Below, piece by piece: positions 6,052 through 32,242 of a stretch of 64,000 nucleotides of DNA (positions within the stretch are counted from its first letter, which is position 1; each line of letters starts with the position of its first letter). The notes beneath the pieces are model-generated. The model had not been told where the DNA came from. It worked only from the letters and a program-made list of their open reading frames with translations, and did not search any database. This stretch comes from Pectobacterium punjabense (lineage in GTDB: Bacteria > Pseudomonadota > Gammaproteobacteria > Enterobacterales > Enterobacteriaceae). The stretch spans positions 124,001-188,000 of the forward strand of contig NZ_CP038498.1 of the NCBI RefSeq assembly GCF_012427845.1, given 5' to 3'. A program made the position numbers and the translations under genes.

Positions 6052-7322
6052 GCGGCAAACTCCTTTTGGGCGCGGGCAAAAAAGTCTTCATCACCGAAAT
6101 TGCCAGATTTCAACGCCAGCGACAGCGGATGATTGGTGGAACGTACCCACGGTACGCCGGGGGAAATAGACGGCCCGATATGGAACGCATGGATGCCCAA
6201 GGTTTGCACCACAATGCTGGAGGTTTCCCCGCCCGCGATGATGAAGCGCTGGAAGCCGTGTTGCTGAAGCTGGCGGGCGACAGCGGCAAACAGTTTCTCT
6301 ACTGCCTGACTGCTGGCTTCCGCCCCCCAGCGCTGCTGAATCTGCGCCAGTTCATCGGATGACGAGGTGGCGTACAGCAGCGGCGCGAGCGCGTCGTCAC
6401 GATGCGCTTTCACCCAGTCGGCCAGTTCCTGCACGTAGGCGTGCTGAGCATCATCGCTTGCTAAGCAGCGAGCGACGTCAATCGCACGACCTGCCGCCTG
6501 TTTCAGGTAGTGAGCGACCTGCTTGTTGGTCATCACCGAACAGGAACCGGATAGCACAACGCCTGCACCGGATTGTGGCTTGCCCGCCTCGGTGGCGGAA
6601 CCAGTCTGTGCCGCGGGCTCTGCCAATTGACGTGCCAGGCCAATCGCCAGACCGGAACCACCGGTGACCAGCTTCATATCGCGCAGCGCCTCGCCCTGTG
6701 TTAACAGGTGCTGTTCGTTCAGCGTATCCAGCACCACATAGCGTATGCCTTGTTCTTTCAACTGCGTCAGCCGCTGCTTAACAGCCTCTGCACCCTGATC
6801 CATCACCGCATAAGGCACCAGCCCGCAGCGTCCGGCTGCCTGCTGTTCCATGACGCGCATCAGGTTGCTATCTGTCATTGGCGTGACCGGATGGTGGCGC
6901 ATTCCAGACTCGGACAACAGCTGATCCATCACGAATAAATGGCCCTGATAGACGGTTCTGCCGTTCACCGGCAGCGCCGGAGAAATGATGGTTTGCGTTT
7001 CGCCAAGCTGCGCTAATAGTGCATCGGTCACTGGACCGATGTTGCCTTTCGCGGTGCTATCGAAGGTGGAGCAATATTTAAAGTAGAACTGCTGGCAGCC
7101 CTGCTGTTGCAGCCACGCCAGCGCCTTGAGTGAATCCGCCACAGCCTGTTCCGCCGGGCAGGAACGCGATTTCAGGCTAATGACCACGGCCTGCGTGTCG
7201 ACCTTAAAATCGGACGGCGGTACGCCGTTGAGCTGCACGGTCGGCAGCCCGTTGTTCACCAGAAAGCTGGCGATATCCGTGGCACCGGTAAAATCGTCGG
7301 CAATCACACCTAGCTTGATCAT
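6048..7322 (-). CDS. otnK: 3-oxo-tetronate kinase (four-carbon acid sugar kinase)
   Basis: A 424-residue ATP-dependent kinase of the DUF1537 family that phosphorylates 3-oxo-tetronate at C4. N-terminal substrate-domain signature IADDFTGATDIASF (residues 7-20), then KYCSTFDSTAKGNIGP, and the C-terminal nucleotide-binding-domain signature FIIAGGETSSIVV near residue 365. It overlaps ltnD upstream and otnC downstream by 4 nt each, so three genes are coupled. Residues about 235-250 form an alanine/glycine-rich stretch between the two domains. The E. coli homologue is YgbK. Confidence 0.9.
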   Translation of the reverse strand: MIKLGVIADDFTGATDIASFLVNNGLPTVQLNGVPPSDFKVDTQAVVISLKSRSCPAEQAVADSLKALAWLQQQGCQQFYFKYCSTFDSTAKGNIGPVTDALLAQLGETQTIISPALPVNGRTVYQGHLFVMDQLLSESGMRHHPVTPMTDSNLMRVMEQQAAGRCGLVPYAVMDQGAEAVKQRLTQLKEQGIRYVVLDTLNEQHLLTQGEALRDMKLVTGGSGLAIGLARQLAEPAAQTGSATEAGKPQSGAGVVLSGSCSVMTNKQVAHYLKQAAGRAIDVARCLASDDAQHAYVQELADWVKAHRDDALAPLLYATSSSDELAQIQQRWGAEASSQAVEKLFAAVARQLQQHGFQRFIIAGGETSSIVVQTLGIHAFHIGPSISPGVPWVRSTNHPLSLALKSGNFGDEDFFARAQKEFAA

Positions 7323-8233
7323 GGCGCCTCCTTCTTTTCCGGCAGCGTAATGCCGTTAAAAATCTTGATGACCGCGCTATCGTCTTCTTTGCCGAATCCG
7401 GCGTTGCTGGCGGCGGTAAACATATTGAATGCGGTGGAGGCCAGCGGAAGCGGGAAATGGAGCGATTTGGCGGTGTCGGTGACCAGCCCCAGATCTTTCA
7501 CGAAAATATCAACGGCGGATTTTGGCGTGTAGTCGCCATCGACAACGTGGCGCATGCGGTTCTCAAACATCCAGGAATTCCCAGCGGCGTTGGTCACCAC
7601 GTCGTACATGATATCCAGCGGAATATCGGCACGCGCGGCCAGCGCCATCGCTTCTGCGCCAGCGGCGATGTGTACGCCTGCCAACAGCTGGTGGATAATT
7701 TTAACGGTCGCACCCAACCCGATCTCTTCACCGATGCGATAGACCTTGCCCGCGACGGCATCGAGCACGGGTTTCAGTTTCTCAAAAGCCAGATCGGAAC
7801 CGGATGCCATCACTGTCATATCGCCTGCGGCGGCTTTCACTGCACCGCCAGATACCGGTGCATCCAGCATGATGAGCTGATGCTCAGCCAGACGCTGTTC
7901 AATGTTTTTGGCATCCTGCGCGGAGATCGTGGAGGACACCATAACCACGGTGCCGGGCTTGAGTTTCGCTGCGACCTGCGGCTCACCGAACAGAATCCCA
8001 TTCACCTGCGCGGCGTTCACCACCAGCAGCACGACCGCATCCAGCTTGTCAGCGAAGGCATCAATACGCGTGTCAGCCTGCGCCGCACCCGCCTGACGTA
8101 AGCGTTCCAGTGCTTGCGGATTGATATCGACACCGTATGTCGTCAGGCCAGCGTTGATGCAGGACGCCGCAGCGCCAAAGCCCATGGAACCCAGACCGAT
8201 AACGGCGACAGCATAATCAGAAGTCTTTTTCAT
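7319..8233 (-). CDS. ltnD: L-threonate dehydrogenase
   Basis: A 304-residue NAD-dependent beta-hydroxyacid dehydrogenase, homologous to E. coli YgbJ/LtnD, oxidising L-threonate to 2-oxo-tetronate. The Rossmann motif GLGSMGFGAA is at residues 14-23, the substrate-binding DAPVSGG motif near 124, and the helix with the catalytic lysine reads GATVKIIHQLLAG near 173. First gene of the operon. Closely related genes act on other hydroxyacids, but the otnK/otnC/otnI neighbourhood fixes the assignment. Confidence 0.9.
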   Translation of the reverse strand: MKKTSDYAVAVIGLGSMGFGAAASCINAGLTTYGVDINPQALERLRQAGAAQADTRIDAFADKLDAVVLLVVNAAQVNGILFGEPQVAAKLKPGTVVMVSSTISAQDAKNIEQRLAEHQLIMLDAPVSGGAVKAAAGDMTVMASGSDLAFEKLKPVLDAVAGKVYRIGEEIGLGATVKIIHQLLAGVHIAAGAEAMALAARADIPLDIMYDVVTNAAGNSWMFENRMRHVVDGDYTPKSAVDIFVKDLGLVTDTAKSLHFPLPLASTAFNMFTAASNAGFGKEDDSAVIKIFNGITLPEKKEAP

Positions 8234-8571: not shown

Positions 8572-9333
8572 GTGATTCCAGTAGAACGTCATCAACAGAT
8601 TCTGGCGCTGATCGCCGAGCGCGGCGCGGTAAGCATTAACGAACTGACCGAGCGACTGGGCGTGTCGCACATGACGGTACGGCGCGATGTGCAAAAACTG
8701 GAGCAGGACGGCCTGCTGCTGAGCGTTTCCGGCGGCGTGCGTTCGCCTGAACGGCTGGCGATTGAGCCGTCGCATCAGGATAAATCGGTGATGTTCAGCC
8801 AGCAGAAAGAAGCAATTGGCAAACTGGCGGCACAGCATATCCCGTTCAATAGCTGCATTTATCTGGATGCAGGCACCACGACGTTATCGCTGGCGCGCGA
8901 ACTTGCCGAGCGTGACGATCTGCTGATTGTCACTAACGATTTTGTGATTGCTGCTTTTCTGATTGAGTCCAGCCAGTGCCGCATGATCCACACCGGCGGC
9001 ACGCTGTGTCGGGAAAACCGCTCCTGCATTGGCGAAGCGGTGGCACAGGCGCTGCGCAACCTGTTTATCGATATTGCGTTTATCTCCGCGTCTTCCTGGA
9101 GCCTGCGCGGGCTGTCCACGCCGAACGAAGACAAAGTGGTTGTGAAACGCGCGGCGGTAGAAGCTAGCAGCAAGTGCGTACTGCTGTGTGACACCTCGAA
9201 ATACGGCCGCATCGCCACCCATCTCGCCACGCCGCTCAGCGTCTTCGACAGCATCATCACCGACGACGGCCTGCCCGTCGCCGCCAAAGACGCGCTGGGC
9301 AAAATGGGGGTTGAGGTGCTGGTGGCGGGGTGA
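8572..9333 (+). CDS. DeoR-family regulator of the threonate operon
   Basis: A 253-residue repressor of the YgbI type. N-terminal winged helix-turn-helix (residues about 4-57) with ITELTERLGVSHMTVRRDVQ-like sequence; the C-terminal DeoRC sensor domain has YLDAGTTTLSLA near 102 and is expected to bind a phosphorylated intermediate. The GTG at 8572 is chosen because the family begins (V/M)IP.ERHQQIL; a longer in-frame reading from 8503 adds 23 residues with no homology. Divergent from ltnD, which it probably controls. Confidence 0.88.
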   Translation: MIPVERHQQILALIAERGAVSINELTERLGVSHMTVRRDVQKLEQDGLLLSVSGGVRSPERLAIEPSHQDKSVMFSQQKEAIGKLAAQHIPFNSCIYLDAGTTTLSLARELAERDDLLIVTNDFVIAAFLIESSQCRMIHTGGTLCRENRSCIGEAVAQALRNLFIDIAFISASSWSLRGLSTPNEDKVVVKRAAVEASSKCVLLCDTSKYGRIATHLATPLSVFDSIITDDGLPVAAKDALGKMGVEVLVAG

Positions 9334-9356
9334 GGGTGGTGTTTATGTCTGTTTGT

Positions 9357-9458
9357 CTAACTGGCAAAAATATCCAGACCTTTCTCGTTGATTATATTGA
9401 GAAGACGTAGCACAGCCCCTGAGGGTTTTTTCTCATTTCGTTCCCATTTTGAGACGCC
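9357..9458 (-). pseudogene. remnant of an XRE-type antitoxin/regulator (C-terminal 33 codons)
   Basis: Reading the minus strand from 9458 to the TAG at 9357-9359 gives GVSKWERNEKKPSGAVLR followed by LLNIINEKGLDIFAS and stop. This is the typical end of YiaG/NadS/HigA-type helix-turn-helix proteins, which carry VSxxTVxxWExGxxxPSGxALxLLxxI. The match stops abruptly at 9458, where the TacA-like remnant begins on the other strand, so the front of the gene has been deleted. No start codon or ribosome site remains. Not previously visible as a gene because it is short and headless. Confidence 0.75.
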
Positions 9459-9685
9459 AGCGGGATTTGATCGATATGGCTGCAAACCTTGTGTCAAAAT
9501 CACGTACCGACTTTATGCTTGAAGCAGCCTGCCGCAAGGCGCAGGACATCTTGTTGGATCAACGTTTGTTTATTTTGGATAACGAACAGTTTGATGGATT
9601 GTTGGCCGAGTTGGATGCGCCTATCACCGCAGAGCGTCATGCCCGCATTAACGATCTTATGTGTCGTCAATCGCCATGGGAATAA
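9459..9685 (+). pseudogene. TacA-like (DUF1778) antitoxin lacking its N-terminus
   Basis: The encoded residues QRDLIDMAANLVSKSRTDF and on through LEAACRKAQDILLDQRLF to LDAPIT line up with DUF1778 antitoxins such as Salmonella TacA. Those normally begin with about 12-15 further residues forming the DNA-binding ribbon (MKSD.QLNLRA..). Here that ribbon is missing: upstream sequence belongs to the opposite-strand XRE remnant. A TTG at 9449 could start translation but has no ribosome site. With the ribbon gone it should not bind an operator, though the toxin-binding tail is intact. Confidence 0.78.
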
Positions 9686-20492: not shown

Positions 20493-20905
20493 GGTTGGTA
20501 TCCTTCTTTAACACGGGTCTTGCCTGTTTTCGGCATGAGTGACGATCACTCTACGCAATCGCGTAAAAAACGCAATGTCGAGTCATCGTAGGGGATAACC
20601 TGACCACTGAATAAATAATTTCGACGGTGTTTTCTAATCTGGAAAACTTCATTTTCCTGAATTTTTATTTATCTTCTATTAATAATTGTAGATGATTGTT
20701 ATTTTTTATTTGGTCATTATATTTCTTGCTAAAAAATATAATCATATTTTATGAGCTACAAGACATATCTCCGTGCAGGCGATATCTCACGGCTATTATT
20801 TTCTGGTTTATTCAACGATCTAGTACTCACCATTTCTACTTATAGCTACCCACCGAGTGTAATGATGTTTTTCGAAATCATATCAGTTTTTGTAAGAGGG
20901 ATATT
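20493..20905. other. AT-rich intergenic region before the DUF1120 locus
   Basis: About 410 bp with no convincing gene. Base composition falls sharply compared with the genes to the left, with long A/T runs from 20600 to 20760. It marks the left edge of the AT-rich fimbrial locus and probably contains the promoter of the decayed first subunit gene; I could not choose a promoter with confidence. Confidence 0.5.
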
Positions 20906-21451
20906 ATGCTGAATGCAATGAAGATGGCCGCCTGTGTACTGGTCGTGCTGGTAACTGCACCCCACTCGGTGAGTGCTGACGGCATTAACGTAAAAATTAT
21001 AGGTACTCTTACGTTGACGGCCTACCATTCATCGCCGACTGACGGGTGTTCATCCGACTACAGTATTACTTTACCCGTTTCGCTAAAAAATGGATTTATC
21101 ACTCTGACAGGTTTGGAAGTATTTGATACCCGTAAAAATAGCGGGGAATATGACGTCAGGCTTATACCGAGTTTCTATGCCACTGATGGTGAAAGTGCTT
21201 TATTAGTAATGCATCGTAATACGTCTAGATCGTGGGAACACTGGGTAGTTGATAATGACGCTATGTGTCATGCTTCTGATAAGCGTCAGCAATTGACTTG
21301 CTGGAAAAAAGCGAGAAAACTCCGTTCGCTAGCAAAATTATGGCTGGCACACAGGGCGTGTAAGACGACCTTAATAAAAGCCCTACGCCTTTCCTTTCAC
21401 AAACCCGCTAAGCTGGATAGGATGCTCATATTGGAGTTGGACTATCTGTAA
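20906..21451 (+). pseudogene. decayed DUF1120 fimbrial-type subunit gene
   Basis: Signal peptide (MLNAMKMAACVLVVLVTAPHSVSA) and the start DGINVKIIGTLTLTA correspond to ESIDVRVIGTITPTA of the intact copies downstream, and the end KPAKLDRMLILELDYL to KPVKLDGLTTLELHYL. Three lesions are visible. The first-cysteine position is now tyrosine. The central segment with the second cysteine is deleted. Near 21300-21365 the homologous residues (EKSEKTPFASKIMAGTQGV) are in a different frame and end in a stop, so the frame shifts out and later back. The reading stays open but cannot make a normal subunit. Confidence 0.78.
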
Positions 21452-21970
21452 CGTATTTATCTGCGGTGACTACGCTTCTGGTTTGGATTTTTCTGGTTAC
21501 TTCGGATCAATTCATATTTCTTTTTCAGATATATCTGATATTTTTAAGGTTATTTAATTACGCATTTATAGCGAGTGAAGAGTAACTCTCTTCTGGCGAG
21601 TGTGGTAATGGGAAATAGAATTTTCTTTTCTTTTCCATTTTGGAAATGTTTATTTTTCTTTTTTTTTGTTTACTTGCTTTTAATGTTTATAGATAATTTG
21701 TGAAATTTATTTATTCCAGTTGCTATTTTTTCATTTGTTAAAGTACGTATTTTACGGTTTTTTATTAATTACATGGCCGACATGGCCGGTTGAAATCTGG
21801 TGAAATGGCGCTGTTTTTATTTCTTATTTTTGTTCGCCTCACGGTGGCGGTGTTGTCTGGAAATTATTTTTTTCATTAATTTAATCATTCTGTGAGTTTT
21901 ATTCTCGCAGTTACCTGTCTGGCAGAGTCATTCCTGCCGACGTTGTTAATCTATAAAAAACGAAGAGGTT
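21452..21970. other. AT-rich leader region of the first intact subunit gene
   Basis: About 520 bp, very AT-rich, no gene. The final 70 bp (about 21899-21970), from TTATTCTCGCAGTTACCTG to the GAAGAGG ribosome site, recurs almost unchanged at about 23850-23928 ahead of the third copy, so the promoter/leader was duplicated with the gene. Confidence 0.6.
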
Positions 21971-22687
21971 ATGATGATGATGAATACAGTAACAAAAACC
22001 GCTTGTGCACTGGCGGTTTTGGCCGCGACATCAACCAGCGTGATGGCTGAAAGTATTGATGTCAGAGTCATTGGCACCATCACGCCGACGGCCTGCAAGC
22101 CCATCCTGGCCGGTGGCGGTACCATCGATTATGGCGTTATTCCGCCAGCATCGTTGAAAAAGGACACCTTTACGGTGTTAGCGGAAAAACAGGTCGATTT
22201 TTCCATAACGTGTGATGCCCCTGCGAAAGTCGCGGTGAATGCTATCGGTACGAAGGCCGATACAGTCACAGATACAAACAAAGCTGCTGGTGGCTATGAT
22301 CCCTTTAGGGGCAAGCTCTTTGATATGCCTTCTGTAAATGTCACAGGGTTAGGGAAATCTGATGACGGCAAGAATATCGGGGGATATGGCATTCGGTTTG
22401 TACCGGATTCCTATACTGTTGATGGTGGCAGTGCTTCATTACTGGTGCGCCAGAAGGCGTCTGATGAGTGGGACAGCTTAGTACACGATAATGGCTCCTT
22501 GTTTGGTGTGTATTCTAAACTCCAGCAGCTAACCTGGGCAGAAAAAGGTGGGAAAACGCCGGTCGCTTTCAAAACGGTGGCCGGTAAACTGGGCGTGCAG
22601 GCTTATATCACCAAAACCTCCGATCTTGACCTTTCCAAACCCGTCAAGCTGGATGGCCTGACCACGCTGGAACTGCATTACCTGTAA
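21971..22687 (+). CDS. DUF1120 fimbrial-type subunit, copy 1
   Basis: A 238-residue secreted protein. Signal peptide about residues 1-25 (ending SVMA), then an alternating hydrophobic N-terminal strand IDVRVIGTITPTAC that could be the donor strand for chaperone-usher assembly. Two cysteines (ACKP near 41 and ITCDAP near 80) can form the usual pilin disulfide, and the C-terminal strand ends LELHYL. Four consecutive ATG codons begin the gene after GAAGAGG, so the exact start is ambiguous. Near-identical to copy 3 except for a patch around residues 165-190. Probably a major surface subunit. Confidence 0.85.
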   Translation: MMMMNTVTKTACALAVLAATSTSVMAESIDVRVIGTITPTACKPILAGGGTIDYGVIPPASLKKDTFTVLAEKQVDFSITCDAPAKVAVNAIGTKADTVTDTNKAAGGYDPFRGKLFDMPSVNVTGLGKSDDGKNIGGYGIRFVPDSYTVDGGSASLLVRQKASDEWDSLVHDNGSLFGVYSKLQQLTWAEKGGKTPVAFKTVAGKLGVQAYITKTSDLDLSKPVKLDGLTTLELHYL

Positions 22688-22700
22688 TGTTTTTCTCTGC

Positions 22701-22728
22701 TGTCGATTGGGATCTGTGCCCAGTTTTT
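22701..22728 (+). terminator. imperfect hairpin with T-run after subunit copy 1
   Basis: GATTGGGATCTGTGCCCAGTTTTTT can fold with a few mismatches and is the diverged counterpart of the perfect hairpin after copy 3. Likely a weak transcript end or attenuator. Confidence 0.5.
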
Positions 22729-22777
22729 TATGACTAATACGCGTCTCTTTTATTTTTAGAGACCAAGGGTGTTCCGT

Positions 22778-22798
22778 ATGCGTCTTTCTGCACCATAA
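22778..22798 (+). pseudogene. fossil of the chaperone gene start
   Basis: ATGCGTCTTTCTGCACCATAA (MRLSAP, stop) follows AGAGACCAAGGGTGTTCCGT. The same leader with small changes (AGAGACCGAAGGTGTTTCGT) precedes the real chaperone start ATGCGTTTTTCTAC at 24746. The spacer after copy 1 therefore preserves the first bases of the chaperone gene, which shows that the subunit was duplicated together with its downstream junction and then cut. Confidence 0.7.
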
Positions 22799-22924
22799 AC
22801 CGCAGAGATATATTCTGGATATTTTTACATTTTTCAATTTTAAAAAGTTTATTTCTTTTAACGTTTCTTCTTGGCAGGTAAATTTCTGCTGGTTCTTTTA
22901 ATTAATAAACATGAAGAGGTTATT

Positions 22925-23626
22925 ATGATGATGATGAATACAGTAACAAAAACGGCCTGTGCACTGGCGGTTTTAGCCGCGACATCAACCAGCGTGATGG
23001 CTGAAAGTATTGATGTCAGAGTCATTGGCACCATCACGCCGACAGCCTGCAAGCCTACCCTGTCCGGTGGGGGTACGATTGACTATGGTGTTATTTCGCC
23101 AGCGTCGTTAAAGAAAGATTCACTTAATCAACTCGGTATTAAGAGTGTGGACTTTGCTATCACCTGTGATGCGCCGGCAAAAGTTGCATTGAAAGCGATT
23201 AACGGCCGCCCTAACACCGTGGCTGGACGGGGAGATGACAATAAAGGTGGCGCTTCCTATCGACCTGACAATATTGGCGGTGATGTTGCAGACTACGTTG
23301 TTGGGCTGGGTCTGGATGGTAATAAAAAAATAGGCGGATATGCCATTGCAATGACAAATGTTAGTGCGGATGGCAAATCGGTTGATTATGGGATTCAAGG
23401 TTTAAATTCAGGTGACAAATGGACTAAATACGGCAAATCTTATTTCTATTACACAGTGCCAGTGATATCCAGTTGGTTTAAACCTGGCACAACTGATCCT
23501 ATCGCTTTCACCACTCTCGTTGGCAAGCTGGATGTCCAGGCCTACATCAACAAAACCTCTGAGCTTGACCTCTCCAAACCCGTCAAGCTTGATGGCCTGA
23601 CCACGCTGGAACTGCATTACCTGTAA
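22925..23626 (+). CDS. DUF1120 fimbrial-type subunit, copy 2 (divergent centre)
   Basis: A 233-residue secreted subunit. Signal peptide, N-terminal strand, both cysteines and the last 30 residues are nearly the same as in copies 1 and 3, but residues about 65-200 are substantially different (for example KAINGRPNTVAGRGDDNKGGASY and the IGGYAIAMTNVSADGKS stretch). Starts at 22925 with four ATG codons after GAAGAGGTTATT. The mosaic of shared ends and a private middle suggests recombination or strong diversifying selection. Assembly role as for copy 1. Confidence 0.85.
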   Translation: MMMMNTVTKTACALAVLAATSTSVMAESIDVRVIGTITPTACKPTLSGGGTIDYGVISPASLKKDSLNQLGIKSVDFAITCDAPAKVALKAINGRPNTVAGRGDDNKGGASYRPDNIGGDVADYVVGLGLDGNKKIGGYAIAMTNVSADGKSVDYGIQGLNSGDKWTKYGKSYFYYTVPVISSWFKPGTTDPIAFTTLVGKLDVQAYINKTSELDLSKPVKLDGLTTLELHYL

Positions 23627-23928
23627 TGTTTTTTCCGTAATAAACTGCGGAGATATATTTTTATTTATTTTCTAATTTGGAAAGGTTTGTTTTTTTATTA
23701 TTTTTAATATTCCTGACTGCTTTTTGAAGATGATCACTTCACTGGTTTTTTATTGGCACCTGTATTGATTAATTGATTGTGATTTCCTGGGTGCTACTCA
23801 ATTGAATTAAGGGGGTGATGTAAAAATAAAATAATGCGGTTGTTGATGATGTTTATTCTCGCAGTTATCTGTCTGGCAGGATTCATTCCTGTTGACGTTA
23901 TTAATCTATAAAAAACGAAGAGGTTATT
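23627..23928. other. AT-rich spacer between subunit copies 2 and 3
   Basis: About 300 bp without a gene. The start (AAACTGCGGAGATATATT near 23641) repeats a stretch of the copy 1-copy 2 spacer (AAACCGCAGAGATATATT near 22797). The last 80 bp repeats the leader of copy 1. The spacer is therefore built of duplicated pieces. Confidence 0.6.
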
Positions 23929-24645
23929 ATGATGATGATGAATACAGTAACAAAAACGGCCTGTGCACTGGCGGTTTTAGCCGCGACATCAACCAGCGTG
24001 ATGGCTGAAAGTATTGATGTCAGAGTCATTGGCACCATCACGCCGACGGCCTGCAAGCCCACTCTGGCCGGTGGCGGTACCATCGATTATGGTGTTATTC
24101 CGCCAGCGTCGTTGAAAAGTGACACCTTTACGGTGTTAGCGGAAAAACAGGTCGATTTTTCCATAACGTGTGATGCTCCTGCGAAAGTTGCGGTGAATGC
24201 TATCGGCACCAAGGCCGATACGGTCACCGATGCAAAAAAATCTGCTGGTGGCTATGCCCCTTTTCTGGGCAAGCTCTTTGATATGCCTTCTGTGAATGTC
24301 GCAGGGTTAGGAAAATCTGATGACGGCAAGAATATCGGGGGATACGGCATTCGGTTTGTTCCGGGCTCCTACACCGTTGATGGTGGCAGTGCTTCATTGC
24401 TGGTACGCAAAAATGCGTCTGACAACTGGGGCAGTGCGACATTTGATAATGGCTCCTTGCTTAATTACACTTCTAAAAGCCATCAGCTAACCTGGGCAGA
24501 AAAAGGCGGGAAAACGCCGGTCGCTTTCAAAACGGTTGCCGGTAAACTGGGCGTACAGGCTTATATCACCAAAACCTCCGAGCTTAACCTCTCCAAACCC
24601 GTCAAACTGGACGGGCTGACCACGCTGGAACTGCATTACCTGTAA
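23929..24645 (+). CDS. DUF1120 fimbrial-type subunit, copy 3
   Basis: A 238-residue secreted subunit, co-linear with copy 1 along its whole length. Differences cluster at residues about 98-110 and 165-190 (KNASDNWGSATFDNGSLL versus QKASDEWDSLVHDNGSLF). Same signal peptide, paired cysteines and terminal LELHYL. Four ATG codons after GAAGAGGTTATT. It is directly upstream of the chaperone gene, from which a hairpin separates it. Confidence 0.85.
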   Translation: MMMMNTVTKTACALAVLAATSTSVMAESIDVRVIGTITPTACKPTLAGGGTIDYGVIPPASLKSDTFTVLAEKQVDFSITCDAPAKVAVNAIGTKADTVTDAKKSAGGYAPFLGKLFDMPSVNVAGLGKSDDGKNIGGYGIRFVPGSYTVDGGSASLLVRKNASDNWGSATFDNGSLLNYTSKSHQLTWAEKGGKTPVAFKTVAGKLGVQAYITKTSELNLSKPVKLDGLTTLELHYL

Positions 24646-24662
24646 TGTTTTTCTCCGCTGCC

Positions 24663-24687
24663 GACTGGGCTCCGTGCCCAGTCTTTT
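24663..24687 (+). terminator. hairpin with T-run between subunit copy 3 and the chaperone gene
   Basis: GACTGGGC-TCCGT-GCCCAGTC is a perfect 8-bp stem followed by TTTT. In chaperone-usher operons such a partial terminator after the major subunit keeps subunit mRNA in excess over chaperone and usher mRNA; that role is inferred here. Confidence 0.7.
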
Positions 24688-24745
24688 CTGGTTTTCTCTG
24701 ACCAATTCCTGTTTCTTTTATTTTTAGAGACCGAAGGTGTTTCGT

Positions 24746-25444
24746 ATGCGTTTTTCTACTTTTTGTGTGGCTTCGCTTGCCGCGCTGTGGTTGCTATCCG
24801 TCAACGCTCATGCAACGGGCATGCTGCCCGAATCTTCAGTTGTTATCGTAGAGGGAAGTGATGGTGAAGGTGCCATCAACCTGAAAAATACGGATGCCTT
24901 TCCCGTATTGCTGCTAACGACGTTGCAGGATATTGAGCACGACCAGGAAAAATTACTCATCATCACCCCACCGGCTGCTCGTGTCGAATCTGGCAAAACC
25001 CAGCGTGTGCGTTTCATGCTGACGACGAAAACACCACTTAAAACCGAACGTCTTAAACGCGTGATATTTGAAGGTGTACCTCCTCAGGAAAAAGACGGCA
25101 ACGTCGTGCGTATGACCGTGCGACAGAACCTGCCAGTCATCATTCGCCCTGCTGGCCTTGCCCGTGATGAGGCTCCCTGGAAACGCCTTGTGTGGTCTCT
25201 CAAGGAAGGAAAACTGAGCGTCCATAACCCATCACCTTATGTTGTTCGCCTTGGTGTGGGCGTTACGACATTGCCAAACCGCTCGAACTGGATGCTGCCG
25301 CATGCTTATATCCTGCCGGGACAGCAACTGACACTGACCAGCGAGGTAAAGCAAACCAGTGGCGTAGCAAACCGAGTCCAGATCTCACCTGCTACGACGT
25401 GGGGTTTTACTGTCGATAGCTATGAAGCGCCTCTGGTGCCGTAA
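24746..25444 (+). CDS. periplasmic fimbrial chaperone
   Basis: A 232-residue two-domain immunoglobulin-like chaperone that caps subunits by donor-strand complementation. Signal peptide MRFSTFCVASLAALWLLSVNAHA; domain 1 includes ITPPAARVESGKTQRVRFML, with the conserved arginine and the alternating G1-type strand, and RLKRVIFEGVPP; domain 2 has NLPVIIRPAGLA and the C-terminal strands. The ATG at 24746 is chosen because a GAAGGTG site precedes it and the signal peptide then starts cleanly. Immediately followed by the usher gene (9 nt). Confidence 0.88.
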   Translation: MRFSTFCVASLAALWLLSVNAHATGMLPESSVVIVEGSDGEGAINLKNTDAFPVLLLTTLQDIEHDQEKLLIITPPAARVESGKTQRVRFMLTTKTPLKTERLKRVIFEGVPPQEKDGNVVRMTVRQNLPVIIRPAGLARDEAPWKRLVWSLKEGKLSVHNPSPYVVRLGVGVTTLPNRSNWMLPHAYILPGQQLTLTSEVKQTSGVANRVQISPATTWGFTVDSYEAPLVP

Positions 25445-25453
25445 GGGGGCGAT

Positions 25454-27895
25454 GTGTCACATGAACCGTACACCAAGCTTCCATCGCGGCGTTGCCGTCT
25501 TTCGTTGTTAATCGCTTTTGGCTGTGCCAGTTGTGTGGGTGTGGCTGGCGCAGCGACTGATAACGCCAATGATGATAGTCTCATTTTTGATGAGAGTGTT
25601 TTGGGTGACCGTGGTATTGACCCTAGCATTGCCAGGCTATTTAGCCACGCACCGCGTTTTATGCCAGGTGAGTCCACCGTGTTGCTGGCGGTAAACGGCG
25701 ATAATCGTGGACGCATTAAGGTGCGTTTTGATGAAAAAGGGACATTATGCGCCGATCGCGCCTTTCAGAATCAGGCTCAACTGGTATCGCCACCTGGGTA
25801 TGCGGATAGTGCGGCCTGCTTCGACCTGCGCCAGGCCTGGCCTCAAACTGACATACAGGTTGAACCGGGCGAGGGTAAAGTTTATCTGTTCGTCCCACCG
25901 GAAGCGCGTAGTGCATCAAGCACTGAGCAGGGAAACTGGCAACATGGCGGTGTGGCGGGCATGCTCAACTATGATGCTATGTATATGAGCTCGTCTGGCG
26001 GCGCGGGAGGCGTCGATTTCAGCCAAATCGGTACCGAAGCGGGGTTTAATGCTGGCGATTGGCTGGTTCGCAGTCGCCAGACGTTTACCCGCTTTAATGG
26101 GCAGGAGCGTATTAACCACCAGGCTGCCTACGCTCAGCGTAGCTTTGTTGGCCTTAAAAAGGTACTACAGGTTGGGCAGGTCAGCCTATCCAGCTCTTTG
26201 TTTGGTGCTGGTCAAGTGCGAGGGTTCCAAATGTTCCCGGAATCGGCACTGACATCAGGGCAGGGAGGTGCTGGCTTGGTTGAGGGGGTGACTGAGACGC
26301 CATCCGTTGTCGAAGTTCGCCAGTCTGGCGTGCTGATTTACAGCGCTGCCGTGCCAGCGGGGCCTTTCCGGCTACAAGGTTTTTCACTGCTCAATGTACG
26401 CTCCGATCTGGTCGTCACACTGACGGGCACTAACGGTCAGGCGCGACAATTTATCGTCCCTGCGGCGACGCTGTTGGCGCGTGCGCCTTTGATTACACCA
26501 GGACTGTCGTTTGGTGCTGGTCGCCTTGAACAGCAGGGCAGCGAATCCCCCGTGCTGGGAACGATTGCTTCTGGCTGGCAGCTCACCCCCTTCACAAGCC
26601 TTAATGCAGGTGTCTTAGGATCATCCCCTTACCGCGCGGGTTCCATGAGTGTGGAAACCCAATTGTTTGATCCGACTCGCCTTAGTCTTCAAGGTACGCT
26701 GGCTCAGGATGTGGAGCACAGTAATACGGGTACGTTACTGTCAGCAATGCTTGGCCACAGCCTGAACGAACGCCTCGGCGTTAGCGTGAATGGGAGTCAA
26801 CAGACGGCCAAATACCGTGAACTGAGCGATGCACTGCAACGGCGTTCTCTCAACAACCCGAATAGCCAAAGCCGCAGTCGCTATCAGTGGGGGAGCGGTA
26901 TTCACTGGTCGGAAGATGTACTTGGCAGTTTTTCCCTGTCATGGGCGCGTAGCACGACTTTTGCTGGTAACAACACTGATTATCTGCGTGGCAGTTGGAG
27001 TCGTCAGTTTGGTCGCGCCTATCTGGGCGCGAGTCTTGAACGCAATACGGGTACGCTCAGCGGTAAAGCGGATAATCGATTGTACGTCTCGTTCAGCATG
27101 CCGCTGGGTGAGGGGCGTAATATCAGTAGCTACCTGAACACGGCTAAACGCAGTGCTCGTACAGGTGTACGTTACAGTGACCGTACCAGTCAGGACCGTG
27201 GCTGGAGCATTTCTACCGATCGCGATCTGCGTAATCATCATACTTCTGCCAGCGGTAATGTGGATTTCGTGACGCCTGTTAGTCAGCTCAGTGCCAGCCT
27301 TAGCCATAGCAGTGATAACTATACCAGTTGGTCAGCACGCGCCAGCGGTGCCGCAGTGCTTCATAAGGACGGCGTGACACTATCCCCTTATCGTGTGGCA
27401 GATACTTTTGGTATTGCTCGGGTGGGGAAAGAGTCAGGCGTGCGGTTGGATACACCAGGAGGGCCGGTGTGGACTAACCGATGGGGATATGCCGTCCTCC
27501 CAACGCTGAATGGCTACCGTCGTTCAGGCATTCAAATCGACACCCGCAGTCTGGACAAGAATGTTGATGTCAGCAATGCCTGGCAAGAAACGGAAATGGC
27601 ACGGGGTGCCATTGGCCGGGTAGATTTTGATGTAATACGCACGCGTCGTGTGCTAGTTGACGCGGTGATGGCGGATGATAAACGCATTCCGGCTGGCGCT
27701 AGCGTGTTTGATGGTTCCGACAGCCTGGTGACGGTAGTGGGTGAAGATGGGTCGGTTTTTGTGCCAGATGCTACTCCCGGCATGGTGTTGGCGGTGCAAA
27801 GCTCGGGCAAAACCGTGTGCAGCATGAAACTTGACTTGCCGGAGAAGGTGGACACATCGGGCTTCTATGAAAATGCAACGGCAACCTGTCGATAA
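25454..27895 (+). CDS. outer-membrane usher, divergent type
   Basis: An 813-residue usher. Signal sequence within residues 1-34, an N-terminal domain containing two cysteines (about 88-115), a long beta-barrel with plug region, and a C-terminal domain ending in a cysteine pair (CSMKLDL...ATATCR). It is somewhat shorter than typical FimD/PapC ushers and lacks the usual SDD.MLP motif at the plug edge: the equivalent region reads VRGFQMFPESALTSGQGG. The GTG at 25454 follows a GGGGGCGAT site. It should secrete and polymerise the DUF1120 subunits encoded around it. Confidence 0.86.
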   Translation: MSHEPYTKLPSRRCRLSLLIAFGCASCVGVAGAATDNANDDSLIFDESVLGDRGIDPSIARLFSHAPRFMPGESTVLLAVNGDNRGRIKVRFDEKGTLCADRAFQNQAQLVSPPGYADSAACFDLRQAWPQTDIQVEPGEGKVYLFVPPEARSASSTEQGNWQHGGVAGMLNYDAMYMSSSGGAGGVDFSQIGTEAGFNAGDWLVRSRQTFTRFNGQERINHQAAYAQRSFVGLKKVLQVGQVSLSSSLFGAGQVRGFQMFPESALTSGQGGAGLVEGVTETPSVVEVRQSGVLIYSAAVPAGPFRLQGFSLLNVRSDLVVTLTGTNGQARQFIVPAATLLARAPLITPGLSFGAGRLEQQGSESPVLGTIASGWQLTPFTSLNAGVLGSSPYRAGSMSVETQLFDPTRLSLQGTLAQDVEHSNTGTLLSAMLGHSLNERLGVSVNGSQQTAKYRELSDALQRRSLNNPNSQSRSRYQWGSGIHWSEDVLGSFSLSWARSTTFAGNNTDYLRGSWSRQFGRAYLGASLERNTGTLSGKADNRLYVSFSMPLGEGRNISSYLNTAKRSARTGVRYSDRTSQDRGWSISTDRDLRNHHTSASGNVDFVTPVSQLSASLSHSSDNYTSWSARASGAAVLHKDGVTLSPYRVADTFGIARVGKESGVRLDTPGGPVWTNRWGYAVLPTLNGYRRSGIQIDTRSLDKNVDVSNAWQETEMARGAIGRVDFDVIRTRRVLVDAVMADDKRIPAGASVFDGSDSLVTVVGEDGSVFVPDATPGMVLAVQSSGKTVCSMKLDLPEKVDTSGFYENATATCR

Positions 27896-27905
27896 GGAGA
27901 ATGAT

Positions 27906-28508
27906 ATGAATATGTTTTGTGGGCGATGGGCGCTTGCGCTGTTGATGAGCGCAGCCTGTGCCAATGCTACCGACCTTATTTCCCCCCCTGTTACTGAAGG
28001 TGGCGTGATGCCTGAGTGGCAACCTAATACTCGCTGTACCCTGTCAGCTAGTAATCCAGTGGTTGATTACGGCATCATGTCACGTTGGCAGTTGCAGGAT
28101 GTTGCGAGGGGCTCGGTGTCTCCTGGTACGCGTTCACTGATGCTTAACGTGGCTTGTCCGCACACCCGAACCATGAAATTACTGATTCAGGGAGAAGGTA
28201 GTGAACAGGGAGGGCTGCGTTACGGTGGACACGGGGTTACCCGCCTACGCTTGTTGGATGTACAGTTGGATGGAAAAGCTGTGGAACTGCGAACACTGAC
28301 GTCAACGGGGGAATGGGGGGATAATGGTGGTCAGGCGATGATGTTGACCCCCGGACAGCAACTGGTGCCAGTGGTTCAAGGGAGGCTCGTCGAGGGGAAG
28401 GCCTTGACTGCACGCTTGGAAGTACAACCGATACTGGCAGAACAGGAGGCCCACGTCAGCAGCCCGCAACGCAGCGAATCGGTATTGACGTTGACGTTGG
28501 CCAATTAG
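27906..28508 (+). CDS. minor (tip or terminator) subunit of the DUF1120 chaperone-usher system
   Basis: A 200-residue secreted protein with a signal peptide (residues about 1-20, ending CANA). The N-terminal region NTRCTLSASNPVVDYGIMS and LMLNVACPHTR contain two cysteines in the pilin arrangement and the VDYG.. stretch also found in the major subunits (TIDYGVI). The C-terminal strand LTLTLAN matches a fimbrial end. As a single distant relative after the usher it may be the tip or anchor. ATG at 27906 with AAGGAGAATGAT ribosome site. Confidence 0.78.
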   Translation: MNMFCGRWALALLMSAACANATDLISPPVTEGGVMPEWQPNTRCTLSASNPVVDYGIMSRWQLQDVARGSVSPGTRSLMLNVACPHTRTMKLLIQGEGSEQGGLRYGGHGVTRLRLLDVQLDGKAVELRTLTSTGEWGDNGGQAMMLTPGQQLVPVVQGRLVEGKALTARLEVQPILAEQEAHVSSPQRSESVLTLTLAN

Positions 28509-29068
28509 CCCGCTTTATAGCCCCCATTGACCGATAAAATTGAGTGGCGTGGCGCATTGGGGGCTGTTATTTCTGAGATGATTTTTCGTCACTTATCAAT
28601 AAATATACCGACCCTGAATCGGGATGAGCAATAAAAGGCTTTCCGGGTATTGTGGTGAATATAATTAAGTGTTTTTAGATGAAATATTGCCAGCAGACTA
28701 TCAGATGGAAAAGGAGTGTGTTTTAATAAGAGGTAGATGGCTAAAGAGTGAGGATGAGTGATATCAGTGTAGGTACCTATGAGTGCATTAATAAAACGTG
28801 ATCGGAAACGGAAATAATCCACCCCATCGCCTATGGCGAACTCCCTTCTGAAATATGGTTGCATTAATTTCGCCATCATCGATAACTGACGTAACTATAT
28901 ATTAACCATAGAAGGTGGAGAATCATCTCACAGAAAATTTACGTGTGTATATTAAGTGTTTAATGAGTAAGGGGATATTGGTTTTTGTGCATTTGTAATG
29001 AATGAAAAGTGATAGTTTTTTGAAAATGCAAATTTAATTCATGATTATAAATAACCAGGGTTATTATT
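28509..29068. other. 560-bp AT-rich spacer without a supported gene
   Basis: Lies between the last subunit gene and the LysR-type regulator. Strongly AT-rich. One minus-strand reading of 96 codons (28589-28879) resembles nothing I recognise and has no clear ribosome site. Probably contains the regulator promoter. Confidence 0.5.
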
Positions 29069-30001
29069 ATGATTTATAAAAATAAACTAGTAAATGATTG
29101 GGTCATTTTTTATACGGTTGTTGAATGTGGGAGTTTGTCGCTGGCAGCAACAAAACTTGGCACGAGTGTATCAACGATCAGTAAATCAATTGCAAAAACA
29201 GAGTCGCTCCTGGGCTCCACGTTGCTTCGAAGAAGTTCTCGTGGGATTGAGATGACGAATTCTGGTCATTCTACGTATAAAAAAGCGAAATCTATCGTAT
29301 CGTCTATTTATTCTCTGCTATCTGAAATTGGTGATGATACAGGGGTGATTCGTGGAAAAATTAGGTTCTCTGCACCGAATGTTATGTGTGAAAATATTGC
29401 GAATCAATGGATATTTGATTATATAAATGAGCACAAAGAAGTTTGTGTTGATTTATTTTCAAGGGAGCGAAGTGATTTGTCAGTGAGTTCTCCTGAGTTT
29501 GATGATCTGGTGTTGAAAAGTGGGTTCATGAATAGTCCAGATTTAGTCCATTGTAAATTGACACCTATGCCTCTTGTTATGTGTGCATCGCCTGATTATT
29601 TGAATGAAAACGATGAAGTTACCGATCCTCACGATCTTAATAACCATGGTGTTTTGATGTTAAACCATCCATCGTTGGCAGAATTAACCTTTATGAAGGA
29701 AGACGAAAATATTCAGAAAACCATAAATATCAATGCGAGATTAATTTCAAATAATGTGGCAGCGATAGTCAATCTGGCTTTAGAGGGGAAAGGTATTTGT
29801 GTTGCTTCTCCGTATTGGTTTATTAGGGACTACCTTAATTCTGGGAAATTAAAAATGGTCCTTCCTGACTGGAAAATACCGACATTAGACACTTATCTGG
29901 TATGGAGGTATAGGGAATATCAATCCCCGTTGATGATTAGTTTCAGAAAATACATACAGCAGAAGTGGGAGGAACTTTCATTTGGGGAATGCACTCAGTA
30001 G
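29069..30001 (+). CDS. LysR-type transcriptional regulator
   Basis: A 310-residue regulator. N-terminal helix-turn-helix (residues about 9-68) including SLSLAATKLGTSVSTISKSIAK, then a periplasmic-binding-like effector domain. Its DNA is much richer in A and T than flanking core genes, as in the fimbrial locus to the left, suggesting joint horizontal acquisition. It is transcribed in the same direction as the usher locus after a 560-bp gap, so control of that locus is plausible but unproven. Effector unknown. Confidence 0.85.
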   Translation: MIYKNKLVNDWVIFYTVVECGSLSLAATKLGTSVSTISKSIAKTESLLGSTLLRRSSRGIEMTNSGHSTYKKAKSIVSSIYSLLSEIGDDTGVIRGKIRFSAPNVMCENIANQWIFDYINEHKEVCVDLFSRERSDLSVSSPEFDDLVLKSGFMNSPDLVHCKLTPMPLVMCASPDYLNENDEVTDPHDLNNHGVLMLNHPSLAELTFMKEDENIQKTININARLISNNVAAIVNLALEGKGICVASPYWFIRDYLNSGKLKMVLPDWKIPTLDTYLVWRYREYQSPLMISFRKYIQQKWEELSFGECTQ

Positions 30002-30071
30002 CCTGATGGTTCGACAAAATTTTTCTGCGACACGAGTCCTAAATAGGATGGGCTTTACTGGCTTACTGGAG

Positions 30072-30110
30072 TGTCCTGACGCATTGAGAGAAAACCAATG
30101 CGTCAGGACA
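30072..30110. repeat. perfect 15-bp inverted repeat between the LysR gene and cpxA
   Basis: TGTCCTGACGCATTG and CAATGCGTCAGGACA flank a 9-nt loop in the gap between two convergent genes. It lacks a strong T-run on either side, but a stem of this length and GC content could end transcription from either direction. Confidence 0.6.
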
Positions 30111-30122
30111 GGTCTACCTAGC

Positions 30123-31493
30123 CTACCGTTGATGCAACGGTAGCCAGATGATTAAGCGCAACCCACCCAGTGGGCTGTCTTCCGCTTTTACCCACCCTTT
30201 GTGCTGCGTAATCGCGGTTTCCACAATAGCGAGCCCCAAACCGCTACCGCCAGATTCGCGGTCACGCGCTTCATCGGTACGGTAGAAGGGGCGGAAAATC
30301 TGTTCACGATCTTCCGGGCTAACGCCGGGGCCGTCATCATCCACTTTGATGGTGATGCCCTGATTATCCACCGAAAAAGCCACTTCGATGTGGTTGTGAG
30401 AATAACGCAGCGCGTTGCGCACGATATTCTCCAGCGCACTGTCGAGCGAGGCCGGGTTACCGAAGAGCGTCCAGGGGCCTGGAGGGTAAGGGACTTCCAG
30501 CGTTTTACCCATCTGCTCGGCTTCAAAAGCTGCATCGTCTAGCACATTGCCCCACAGTTCATCAGCATGCAGGAACTCGCGGGTCAGTTCATTCTTGTGC
30601 TGATTGCGCGACAGCACCAGCAGGTCGTTAATCATGCTGTCGAGCCGCTGGGTTTCCGTCTCGATGCGGTTCAGTTCATTGCCTTCTCCCTGACGCCGAC
30701 GCAGTAGCGCCGTTGCCAACTGCAAGCGCGTCAGCGGCGTCCGCAGTTCGTGCGAGATATCAGACAGCAGACGTTGCTGTGCGGTCACCATCCGTTCCAG
30801 CGCACTGACCATTTGGTTAAAGCTGACGCCCGTCGCCTGAAACTCCTGCGGGCCAGATTCCAATTCAGGATGCTGACGTAAATTACCTTTGGCGACTTCA
30901 TCGGCGGCGTGCTTGAGCTTACGCGCGGGTTTCGCCAGGCTCCAGGCGAGCCAAAGCAAGAGCGGTGAACTGATTAACATGGTGAAGATCAGTAGCAGCA
31001 AAGGACGGTCAAACAACAGGCTAATGAAATCGGACTGCGGGCTGCTGGCAGGACGAATCAGATAAAGCTGGTAGTTGTCATCACCATCGCGGATCGCAAA
31101 AGGACCGAGAAGCTCAATGCGGCCGTAATTTTTCTTTTGTGGATGATCGGCGTTATCCGACAACCCGATAAAATTACGCACGATCGGAGTTTCATGCTTC
31201 TCTGCGCCAAAGATCCGGCCTTCGCTGGTGACCAGAAAAAGGCGCTGCCCCGGTGGAGCCCACTTCTCCAACACCCAGAACAGTCGTAGCCACCAGCGCA
31301 GATCGTTGGCAGGGGTGTTGGCGAGGTCTGCTTCAATGTGCTGTTCCAGCATGATGCCCTGCCGCTGCTCGTTTTCCAGCAGGGCGGTAAGCTGGCGCGA
31401 GTCCAGCTTGGGCACCATCAGAACCAGCATGAGTACCAGCGCCAGCGTTAACCAAAAAATGGCAAAGATACGGGCGGTCAAACTATTGATCAT
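30123..31493 (-). CDS. cpxA: envelope-stress sensor histidine kinase/phosphatase CpxA
   Basis: A 456-residue inner-membrane kinase. Membrane segment about residues 8-28, periplasmic sensor about 29-163, second membrane segment about 164-186, HAMP about 187-238, dimerisation domain with phospho-accepting histidine in SDISHELRTPLTR (near 248), and an ATP-binding domain with N box IVRNALRYS, DDDGPGV and GGSGLGL. It overlaps cpxR by 4 nt. The 3' end of the gene is itself a 9-bp palindrome (30123-30143). Confidence 0.96.
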   Translation of the reverse strand: MINSLTARIFAIFWLTLALVLMLVLMVPKLDSRQLTALLENEQRQGIMLEQHIEADLANTPANDLRWWLRLFWVLEKWAPPGQRLFLVTSEGRIFGAEKHETPIVRNFIGLSDNADHPQKKNYGRIELLGPFAIRDGDDNYQLYLIRPASSPQSDFISLLFDRPLLLLIFTMLISSPLLLWLAWSLAKPARKLKHAADEVAKGNLRQHPELESGPQEFQATGVSFNQMVSALERMVTAQQRLLSDISHELRTPLTRLQLATALLRRRQGEGNELNRIETETQRLDSMINDLLVLSRNQHKNELTREFLHADELWGNVLDDAAFEAEQMGKTLEVPYPPGPWTLFGNPASLDSALENIVRNALRYSHNHIEVAFSVDNQGITIKVDDDGPGVSPEDREQIFRPFYRTDEARDRESGGSGLGLAIVETAITQHKGWVKAEDSPLGGLRLIIWLPLHQR

Positions 31494-32188
31494 GCAGCCG
31501 ATACCATCAAATAGCCTCGTCCACGCAGCGTTTTAAACCAGGGCAAACTGTCTTTACGCTCTGGCAATTTACGCCGCAGGTTCGAGATATGCATATCGAT
31601 CGCACGGTCAAACGGCGTCAGCCGTTTCCCCAGAACTTCCTGACTTAAATGCTCGCGGGAAACCACCTGTCCTAACCGCTGCGCCAGCAGATAGAGCAGC
31701 GTGAATTCGGTGCCTGTCAAATCCAGTACAACATCGTCAAAGCTGGCTTCCTGCCGTCCGGGATTCAGACGCAGGCCATCGACTTCCAGCGTTGGCGCGC
31801 TGTTATCACCCGCCTGCTGTTGATCGGTCCAGTTGGAACGGCGGAGAATCGCGCGAATTCGTGCCACCAGTTCCCTATCGTTAAAGGGTTTCGGCAGATA
31901 GTCATCCGCACCCAGCTCCAGGCCAAGAACGCGATCTAACTCACTGCCGCGGGCGGTCAACATGATGACCGGCGTTTGATGCTGCTGTCGTAGTTCTTTT
32001 AATGTATCGATACCGTTTTTCTTCGGCATCATTACATCCAGTAATAACAGGTCAATGGTGTTATCTATTATCTGTAACGCCTGCTCGCCGTCGTAGGCGA
32101 CAACGACGTTAAAACCTTCCATTTCGAGCAACTCTTTCAATAAAGCGGTCAGCTCTTTATCGTCATCAACCAGCAGAATTTTATTCAT
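31490..32188 (-). CDS. cpxR: envelope-stress response regulator CpxR
   Basis: A 232-residue OmpR-family regulator, the same length as in E. coli. Receiver domain about 1-120 with acidic pocket DDDKE and phospho-accepting aspartate in LLLLDVMMPKKNG (near 51), then a winged-helix DNA-binding domain (about 130-230) with DRAIDMHISNLRRKL. The ATG at 32188 is the family start; an 11-residue upstream extension is rejected. It phosphorelays with CpxA and likely autoregulates through the site at 32243-32257. Confidence 0.96.
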   Translation of the reverse strand: MNKILLVDDDKELTALLKELLEMEGFNVVVAYDGEQALQIIDNTIDLLLLDVMMPKKNGIDTLKELRQQHQTPVIMLTARGSELDRVLGLELGADDYLPKPFNDRELVARIRAILRRSNWTDQQQAGDNSAPTLEVDGLRLNPGRQEASFDDVVLDLTGTEFTLLYLLAQRLGQVVSREHLSQEVLGKRLTPFDRAIDMHISNLRRKLPERKDSLPWFKTLRGRGYLMVSAA

Positions 32189-32242
32189 GTTTTCTCTACC
32201 TCCAAGGGCAAAATACGACATAGATTAGCGCTATTCCATGAC

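Follow-up and report, generated by a model that had tools for sequence, protein, structure and literature searches.

Tandem DUF1120 pilin genes of Pectobacterium punjabense: homogenised 5ʹ ends around separate cores

Pilin genes that combine constant and variable segments are known from the pilE/pilS system of Neisseria, in which silent partial cassettes of a type IV pilin convert one expressed gene. Among the fimbriae built by a chaperone and an usher, the Fim2, Fim3 and FimX subunits of Bordetella share one chaperone–usher set. The Yhc fimbria of E. coli presumably belongs to the beta clade. In Salmonella, Stj is described as the sole beta-fimbria, of a clade that lacks a typical adhesin gene and for which information on structure and function is missing (PMC3373541). 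The same source reports that ste contains two tandem predicted adhesin genes and that several strains have one gene resembling their recombinant (PMC3373541). Recombination between fimbrial clusters has been suggested to maintain subunit diversity in Gallibacterium (PMC4299563), and fim expression in Bordetella varies through homopolymer tracts in the promoters (PMC1891110). Here, an array of DUF1120 pilin genes is described from a 64,000-nucleotide (nt) stretch of Pectobacterium punjabense, termed the window (assembly GCF_012427845.1, contig NZ_CP038498.1, positions 124,001 to 188,000, forward strand; coordinates below are those of the window). Three copies, c1, c2 and c3, precede the genes for a chaperone and an usher (Table 1) and probably encode alternative main subunits of one chaperone–usher fimbria, with subunit ends ("handles") homogenised by gene conversion and cores kept apart.

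The initial annotation had depicted the array as three intact genes with constant ends and a variable middle, and this picture is borne out by the open reading frames, by the DUF1120 scores (Pfam cut-off, 21 bits) and by pairwise nucleotide identities among c1, c2 and c3 in windows of 20 codons. The sliding-window alignment that it had proposed gives 90–100% identity at the ends (95–100% over codons 1–40 and 90–93% in the last window, all pairs) and 27–62% in the middle of c2 against c1 or c3 (windows starting at codons 81–181). The shared cysteines pointed out there are C42 and C81 of the mature protein, invariant in a 31-row alignment. Copies c1 and c3 are 90% identical, and the two patches in which they had been said to differ are real, with 5 of the 24 residue differences at residues 102–113 and 13 at residues 161–185. 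A comparison within the genus is offered by P. fontis (locus L041, NZ_JSXC01000033.1), where an A gene and then a B gene lie at the same place. In residues 1–45, protein identity is 98% between c1 and c2, 93% between P. fontis A and B, and 76–78% across species; in the core, it is 33–35% between c1 and c2, 68–71% between c1 or c3 and P. fontis A, and 70% between c2 and P. fontis B. A decayed copy, c0, has no DUF1120 match in a Pfam scan and is 56–60% identical in nucleotides to the intact copies at the ends, which indicates that a copy of the same array can stay outside the exchange.

The case for recombination is carried by the 5ʹ handle. Counted from the last Met codon, positions −21 to +109 are the same in c2 and c3 (0 of 131 nt differ), whereas c2 and P. 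fontis B have 39 mismatches in these 131 nt; the two P. fontis genes, A and B, have one mismatch in 112 nt (−39 to +72; all counts ungapped, which for c1 against c2 or c3 overstates the upstream mismatches at a 3-nt indel). Synonymous distances over codons 5–45 (Nei–Gojobori) are 0.17 for c1–c2, 0.10 for c2–c3 and 0.10 for P. fontis A–B; for copies of the same class across species, they are 1.66 (c1–A) and 2.61 (c2–B). In the core, a proportion of 0.77 of synonymous sites differs between c2 and c3, and synonymous sites are saturated between c1 and c2. Tree tests, run on 10 rows with three Buttiauxella rows left out, point the same way. The 5ʹ tree (codons 5–60) rejects the groupings {c2, B} (approximately unbiased [AU] test, p 7.5e-55) and {c1, c3, A} (3.2e-4), and the core tree (codons 66–200) rejects {c1, c2, c3} (1.2e-50) and {A, B} (3.9e-57). 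The 5ʹ ends therefore group by genome and the cores by class, as expected of separate histories, and the shared 5ʹ ends are younger than the cores, independently in two species. Recombination between copies, inferred initially from the pattern of shared and divided blocks, is upheld by this age difference and by the reach of the tract upstream of the first ATG. Because of that upstream reach, constraint at the protein level alone would be insufficient. The simplest account is that, once the two species had separated, the 5ʹ handle was converted repeatedly in each of them. Recent duplication followed by fast change of the cores was considered and rejected, both core classes being present in P. 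fontis as well.

Relatives of the family were found in 45 of 392 genomes, and a search with the subunit alignment returned 52 loci; in a usher-based search for related loci, 20 stretches fitted the pattern and none was a relative. Recurrence of the 5ʹ pattern was assessed in 24 loci with 66 genes, 21 of these loci having two or more copies. Matches scoring less than 60 bits (a 27-bit piece in L070) were left out, as were loci that duplicated an array, the Pseudomonas loci and L056–L059, L080 and L084, each with several copies. An array was scored as carrying the signature if at least one pair had a proportion of differing synonymous sites (pS) of at most 0.30 in the 5ʹ end and at least 0.5 in the core, thresholds chosen after a first look at the array comparison data. 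By this measure, the signature is present in 7 of the 21 multi-copy arrays and in 0 of 2,070 between-array pairs. The seven are those of the window, P. fontis, Buttiauxella sp. B2, Enterobacteriaceae bacterium 89, Erwinia aphidicola and the genome G192, together with one Cedecea array, so that outside Pectobacterium 5 of 19 arrays have it. The pattern thus recurs without being universal. In the G192 array (L055), the pilin genes at 7186–7866 and 8918–9598 are 97–100% identical in nucleotides by region and unlike the gene between them, as would result from copying an entire gene inside the array. Many of the Pseudomonas loci (L082–L112) have several DUF1120-related genes, up to nine per locus, often with one much longer open frame, in a larger and different arrangement.

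Cores appear to have been exchanged as well. A database protein of P. punjabense (P0008) has the same 18-residue leader translation and the same first 65 residues as c2, including S47 and S58, both missing from c1 and c3; after residue 65 follow an A-like stretch and a distinct region, and its core is 61% identical to c1 and 35% to c2. By joining the 5ʹ part of c2 to another core, this protein provides the strain-to-strain difference that the initial annotation had called for and indicates, at the protein level, core replacement between strains. It may come from the same strain as a c1-like protein (P0002), the longest contig being 72,770 in both records. In the comparison with other Pectobacterium genomes proposed there, the array is found in 2 of 25 genomes, and copy number differs between these two, with two subunit genes in P. 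fontis and three, plus the decayed c0, in the window. Identical cores in all strains together with a dominance of synonymous changes had been named as the outcome that would tell against a mosaic; synonymous changes do dominate between same-class cores of the two species, and the cores are not the same between strains.

Beyond the two species, chaperone, usher and N-terminal end are 80%, 79% and 80% identical to those of the window in P. fontis, and the same three values hold for Serratia ureilytica, whose single subunit has a core just 31–37% identical to c1, c3 and c2. In Klebsiella sp. BIGb0407, the core of the single subunit groups with B (support 96/95) at 47% identity to c2, and the usher encoded beside it is 75% identical to that of the window. 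Between species, the ratio of nonsynonymous to synonymous change (dN/dS) is about 0.14 in the B core (0.219/1.61) and about 0.2 in A. The B core is thus an old, conserved class under purifying selection, which limits any claim of fast surface change; selection for surface diversity, as first suggested, is not supported for the core of c2, which is shared with P. fontis and not fast-changing.

The differences between c1 and c3 are distributed otherwise. Only 1 of the 24 falls in a predicted strand, although strands make up 67 of 212 residues (Fisher p 0.0017; c1 model). In codons 160–186, the proportion of differing nonsynonymous sites (pN) is 0.33 and pS is 0.34; pN is 0.15 in codons 100–115 and 0.01–0.02 in the other four segments. 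This pattern fits relaxed or diversifying selection in one loop, and surface diversity is plausible in that the differences avoid predicted strands and gather in one predicted loop. The predicted models of c1 and c2 (predicted local distance difference test scores of 86.4 and 83.7) match pilin domains of FimA, FimG and PapG from about residue 36 to the end, and both core classes are predicted to adopt the FimA-like incomplete immunoglobulin-like pilin fold; we infer that residues 27–38, approximately, are the donor segment. A sequence search of solved structures gave two matches only (E 0.68 and 0.71), which were taken as chance.

Under the preferred reading, each pilin would carry its signal peptide, donor-strand-like N-terminus and last C-terminal strand as common assembly handles around a core of its own. 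Conversion between neighbouring copies would repeatedly overwrite the 5ʹ handle and a little upstream sequence, and the 3ʹ end less thoroughly, and would stop where the cores are too different to pair. Old core classes would persist within handles compatible with one chaperone and usher, and new cores would be brought in by recombination through these handles. All three pilins would be assembled by the same usher with their loops facing outward, and the benefit would be a changeable outer surface for contact with phage, plant or neighbours. A bolder extension is tentative: in a fimbria without a dedicated tip adhesin, the repeated subunit would carry the contact face, and the tandem cores would form a small library of alternative binding or phage-facing surfaces, swapped as cassettes through the recombining handles, both inside one cell and from strain to strain or genus to genus, and a single usher would serve them all.

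Several observations weigh against the preferred reading. Homogenisation of the 3ʹ end appears weaker than that of the 5ʹ end: pS over codons 205–238 is 0.34 for c1–c2 and 0.41 for c2–c3, the 3ʹ tree test rejects neither grouping (AU test, p 0.15 and 0.18), and at the same threshold just one of the 21 arrays passes for the 3ʹ end, as does one of the 2,070 between-array pairs. The 5ʹ signature itself is missing in 14 of the 21 arrays, and the grouping {c1, c2, c3} in the 5ʹ tree has a support of only 79/85. The frame of c2 is open upstream to a TTG at 22871, which leaves the true start and the non-coding share of the tract uncertain. Upstream of c1 and of the P. fontis genes, a conserved promoter-like element can be recognised clearly, but ahead of c2 and c3 it is degraded. 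Moreover, the DNA-level comparison covers two Pectobacterium genomes, one per species, and the evidence from strains consists of protein records. Finally, in P. fontis the B core occupies the same place in the gene order, with the dN/dS given above (about 0.14), as would be expected of a specialised subunit no less than of an interchangeable one.

That last point leads to the strongest alternative, a division of labour in which A and B form different parts of the fibre, such as rod and adaptor, with cores that differ because their jobs do, and the ends are converted only incidentally, through the tandem arrangement of the genes. The conserved order of A and B in the window and P. fontis and the purifying selection on the B core favour it, as does the co-occurrence of both classes elsewhere: proteins of each are recorded from P. 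aroidearum (P0004, P0052), on different contigs, and an A protein (P0010) and a B protein (P0026) have a longest contig of 6,104 in both records. However, in Serratia ureilytica, Serratia sp. Ag1 and Klebsiella sp. BIGb0407, a chaperone, a usher and a terminal subunit are found with a single main subunit, whose core in the Klebsiella locus groups with B; the window has two A copies that differ chiefly in loops; and in P0008 the 5ʹ part of c2 stands on an A-like core. A division of labour is fairly unlikely on this evidence. Much less probable is a gene-dosage array, in which one pilin was duplicated for output and the extra copies decay neutrally with c0 as the end state; the decay of c0, the closeness of c1 and c3 and a trace of duplication behind c1 are what it would predict, but the core of c2 dates back too far for a recent duplicate and evolves under purifying selection, and the c1–c3 differences are gathered in loops instead of being spread. 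That the ends are alike without any recombination, by purifying selection that chaperone and usher demand, is scarcely credible. The ends are indeed conserved across 31 aligned relatives, and those of the window copies have a low pN. However, synonymous sites and nearby upstream bases are alike within a genome and strongly diverged between species, the tree tests reject a common history of 5ʹ end and core, and 14 of 21 arrays have no pair with such synonymous likeness, so that purifying selection alone is ruled out.

Table 1. Coordinates of the fimbrial island, its genes and the elements discussed (aa, amino acids; kb, kilobases)
Feature	Position	Strand	Remarks
Fimbrial island	20577..30123	.	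9.5 kb; from flanking-gene spacing in genomes without the island
c0, decayed DUF1120-like copy	20906..21451	+	181 aa, middle missing; internal contrast, ends not homogenised
c1, DUF1120 pilin, class-A core	21971..22687	+	238 residues from first ATG; PF06551 71.2 bits; predicted pilin fold
3ʹ handle tract, c1	22652..22694	+	43 nt identical to 23591-23633 of c2; last 11 codons, stop, 7-nt spacer
5ʹ handle tract, c2	22913..23043	+	131 nt identical to c3 tract; 12 nt before first ATG, signal peptide, donor-strand-like segment
c2, DUF1120 pilin, class-B core	22925..23626	+	233 residues from first ATG; PF06551 69.5 bits; predicted pilin fold
5ʹ handle tract, c3	23917..24047	+	Partner of 22913-23043
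c3, DUF1120 pilin, class-A core	23929..24645	+	238 residues from first ATG; PF06551 68.9 bits
Terminator- or attenuator-like hairpin behind c3	24663..24683	+	Counterpart behind c1 at 22705-22725; different hairpin behind c2 at 23632-23653
PapD-like periplasmic pilus chaperone	24746..25444	+	PF00345 80.8 bits (cut-off 23); NCBIfam PRK09918 306.7 bits (cut-off 183)
Outer-membrane usher	25454..27895	+	PF00577 277.6 bits, PF13954, PF13953, each above cut-off
Small terminal subunit-like protein	27900..28508	+	NCBIfam PRK15301 58.7 bits, under cut-off 226
LysR-type regulator, travels with island	29069..30001	+	Pfam; close matches confined to island genomes

With a chaperone and a usher that has N-terminal, barrel and C-terminal domains, the locus is, by its domain content, assignable to the chaperone–usher fimbrial operons. 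The PapD_C domain of the chaperone (PF02753) scores 21.9 bits, slightly below the cut-off of 22.8, and the product of the terminal gene (about 202 amino acids) has no match in a Pfam scan. Subunit matches, a close usher (79–100%) and a close LysR regulator (85–100%) are confined to the same 2 of 25 Pectobacterium genomes; the others have merely distant members of the usher and LysR families, the other LysR proteins being at most 33% identical among the matches listed. The flanking tetratricopeptide repeat gene is present in 25 of 25. Because the flanking genes lie 80–114 nt apart in 9 of 9 species inspected among the 23 genomes without the island, the island is present or absent as one unit. 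Usher, chaperone and subunits are about 75% identical in nucleotides to those of P. fontis and the flanks 86–87%, a difference that hints at separate acquisition or faster change of the island. A kinase–regulator pair, presumably Cpx-like, adjoins the island (20577-32221 in all), and the kinase is 99% identical in P. fontis. Behind c1, a relic of the pilin–chaperone junction that includes the first codons of the chaperone (22688..22789, forward strand) is 77% identical over 112 columns to 24646-24757, which indicates a past duplication or conversion of a segment that extended into the chaperone gene.

Upstream of c1 (21659-21697), a run of nine T directly precedes a promoter-like TTTACT-17-GATAAT, and nine T also stand ahead of the same element at P. 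fontis A (L041 from 7647). A run of seven T lies upstream of c3; in the upstream stretches examined for c2 and P. fontis B, no run reaches seven. The nine-T run could vary in length and affect expression. A promoter scan found 9 sites, against 9.0 in shuffles, and the idea that each copy has its own promoter is borne out in part alone, given this lack of excess and the degraded element at c2 and c3. Terminator-like hairpin sites number 9 in a scan of the region, with 5.4 expected (standard deviation 2.1). In P. fontis, hairpins at L041 8619-8680 and 9721-9780 stand at the same place as those behind c1 and c3 with different stem letters, and the hairpins behind c1, c3 and both P. fontis genes look as expected of a kept RNA stem serving as an attenuator or a stabiliser of mRNA ends. 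The E. coli Chi sequence, GCTGGTGG, is found at 17 places in the window, where shuffles lead one to expect 2.6; c1 has one of them (22286) and c3 another at the corresponding position (24244). Chi sites were dropped as a cause, two in 2.7 kb being unremarkable for this window.

Among described fimbriae, those of the beta clade (Salmonella Stj, E. coli Yhc) likewise have DUF1120 subunits, a chaperone of the PRK09918 family, a usher nearest to PRK15304 and a small terminal subunit. The best NCBIfam match of the window usher is PRK15304 (622.6 bits, under the cut-off of 723), identities to E. coli K-12 are 40% for YhcA, 32% for YhcD and 28–29% for YhcF, and a relative with 51% identity (P0083) bears the source name "Beta-fimbriae probable major subunit". 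The yhc locus of K-12 has a single gene annotated as DUF1120, yhcF, behind the usher and the related gltF ahead of the chaperone, whereas the window has several tandem main subunits with homogenised 5ʹ ends. No description of homogenised ends in a tandem chaperone–usher pilin array was found in the literature searched, with subscription papers largely outside it. The array would offer a clear-cut natural example of protein handles kept uniform by recombination around cores that remain different and, for a little-studied fimbrial clade, a testable idea of which parts of a DUF1120 pilin serve assembly and which face outward. Since the handle boundaries are natural joints of the core, pilin modularity could be tested directly; if the reading is true, one assembly machine could build hairs with different outer faces. 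In Bordetella, fim2, fim3 and fimX are likewise several alternative main subunit genes in one genome (PMC1891110), whereas the window copies are tandem and have evidence of conversion at their ends. In their available parts, the accounts of ste and Gallibacterium are without homogenised ends and kept-apart cores in a tandem main-subunit array. The likeness to pilE/pilS of Neisseria lies in pilin genes with constant and variable segments and conversion between copies; unlike there, all three copies of the array are complete genes, and conversion affects the constant end instead of the variable core. Silent cassettes were not found in the array, which has three full open reading frames with start, signal peptide and stop and a decayed c0 with ends unlike the others. 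Diversity of the type 1 pilus subunit FimA lies between strains, whereas in the window it lies also between tandem genes of one genome.

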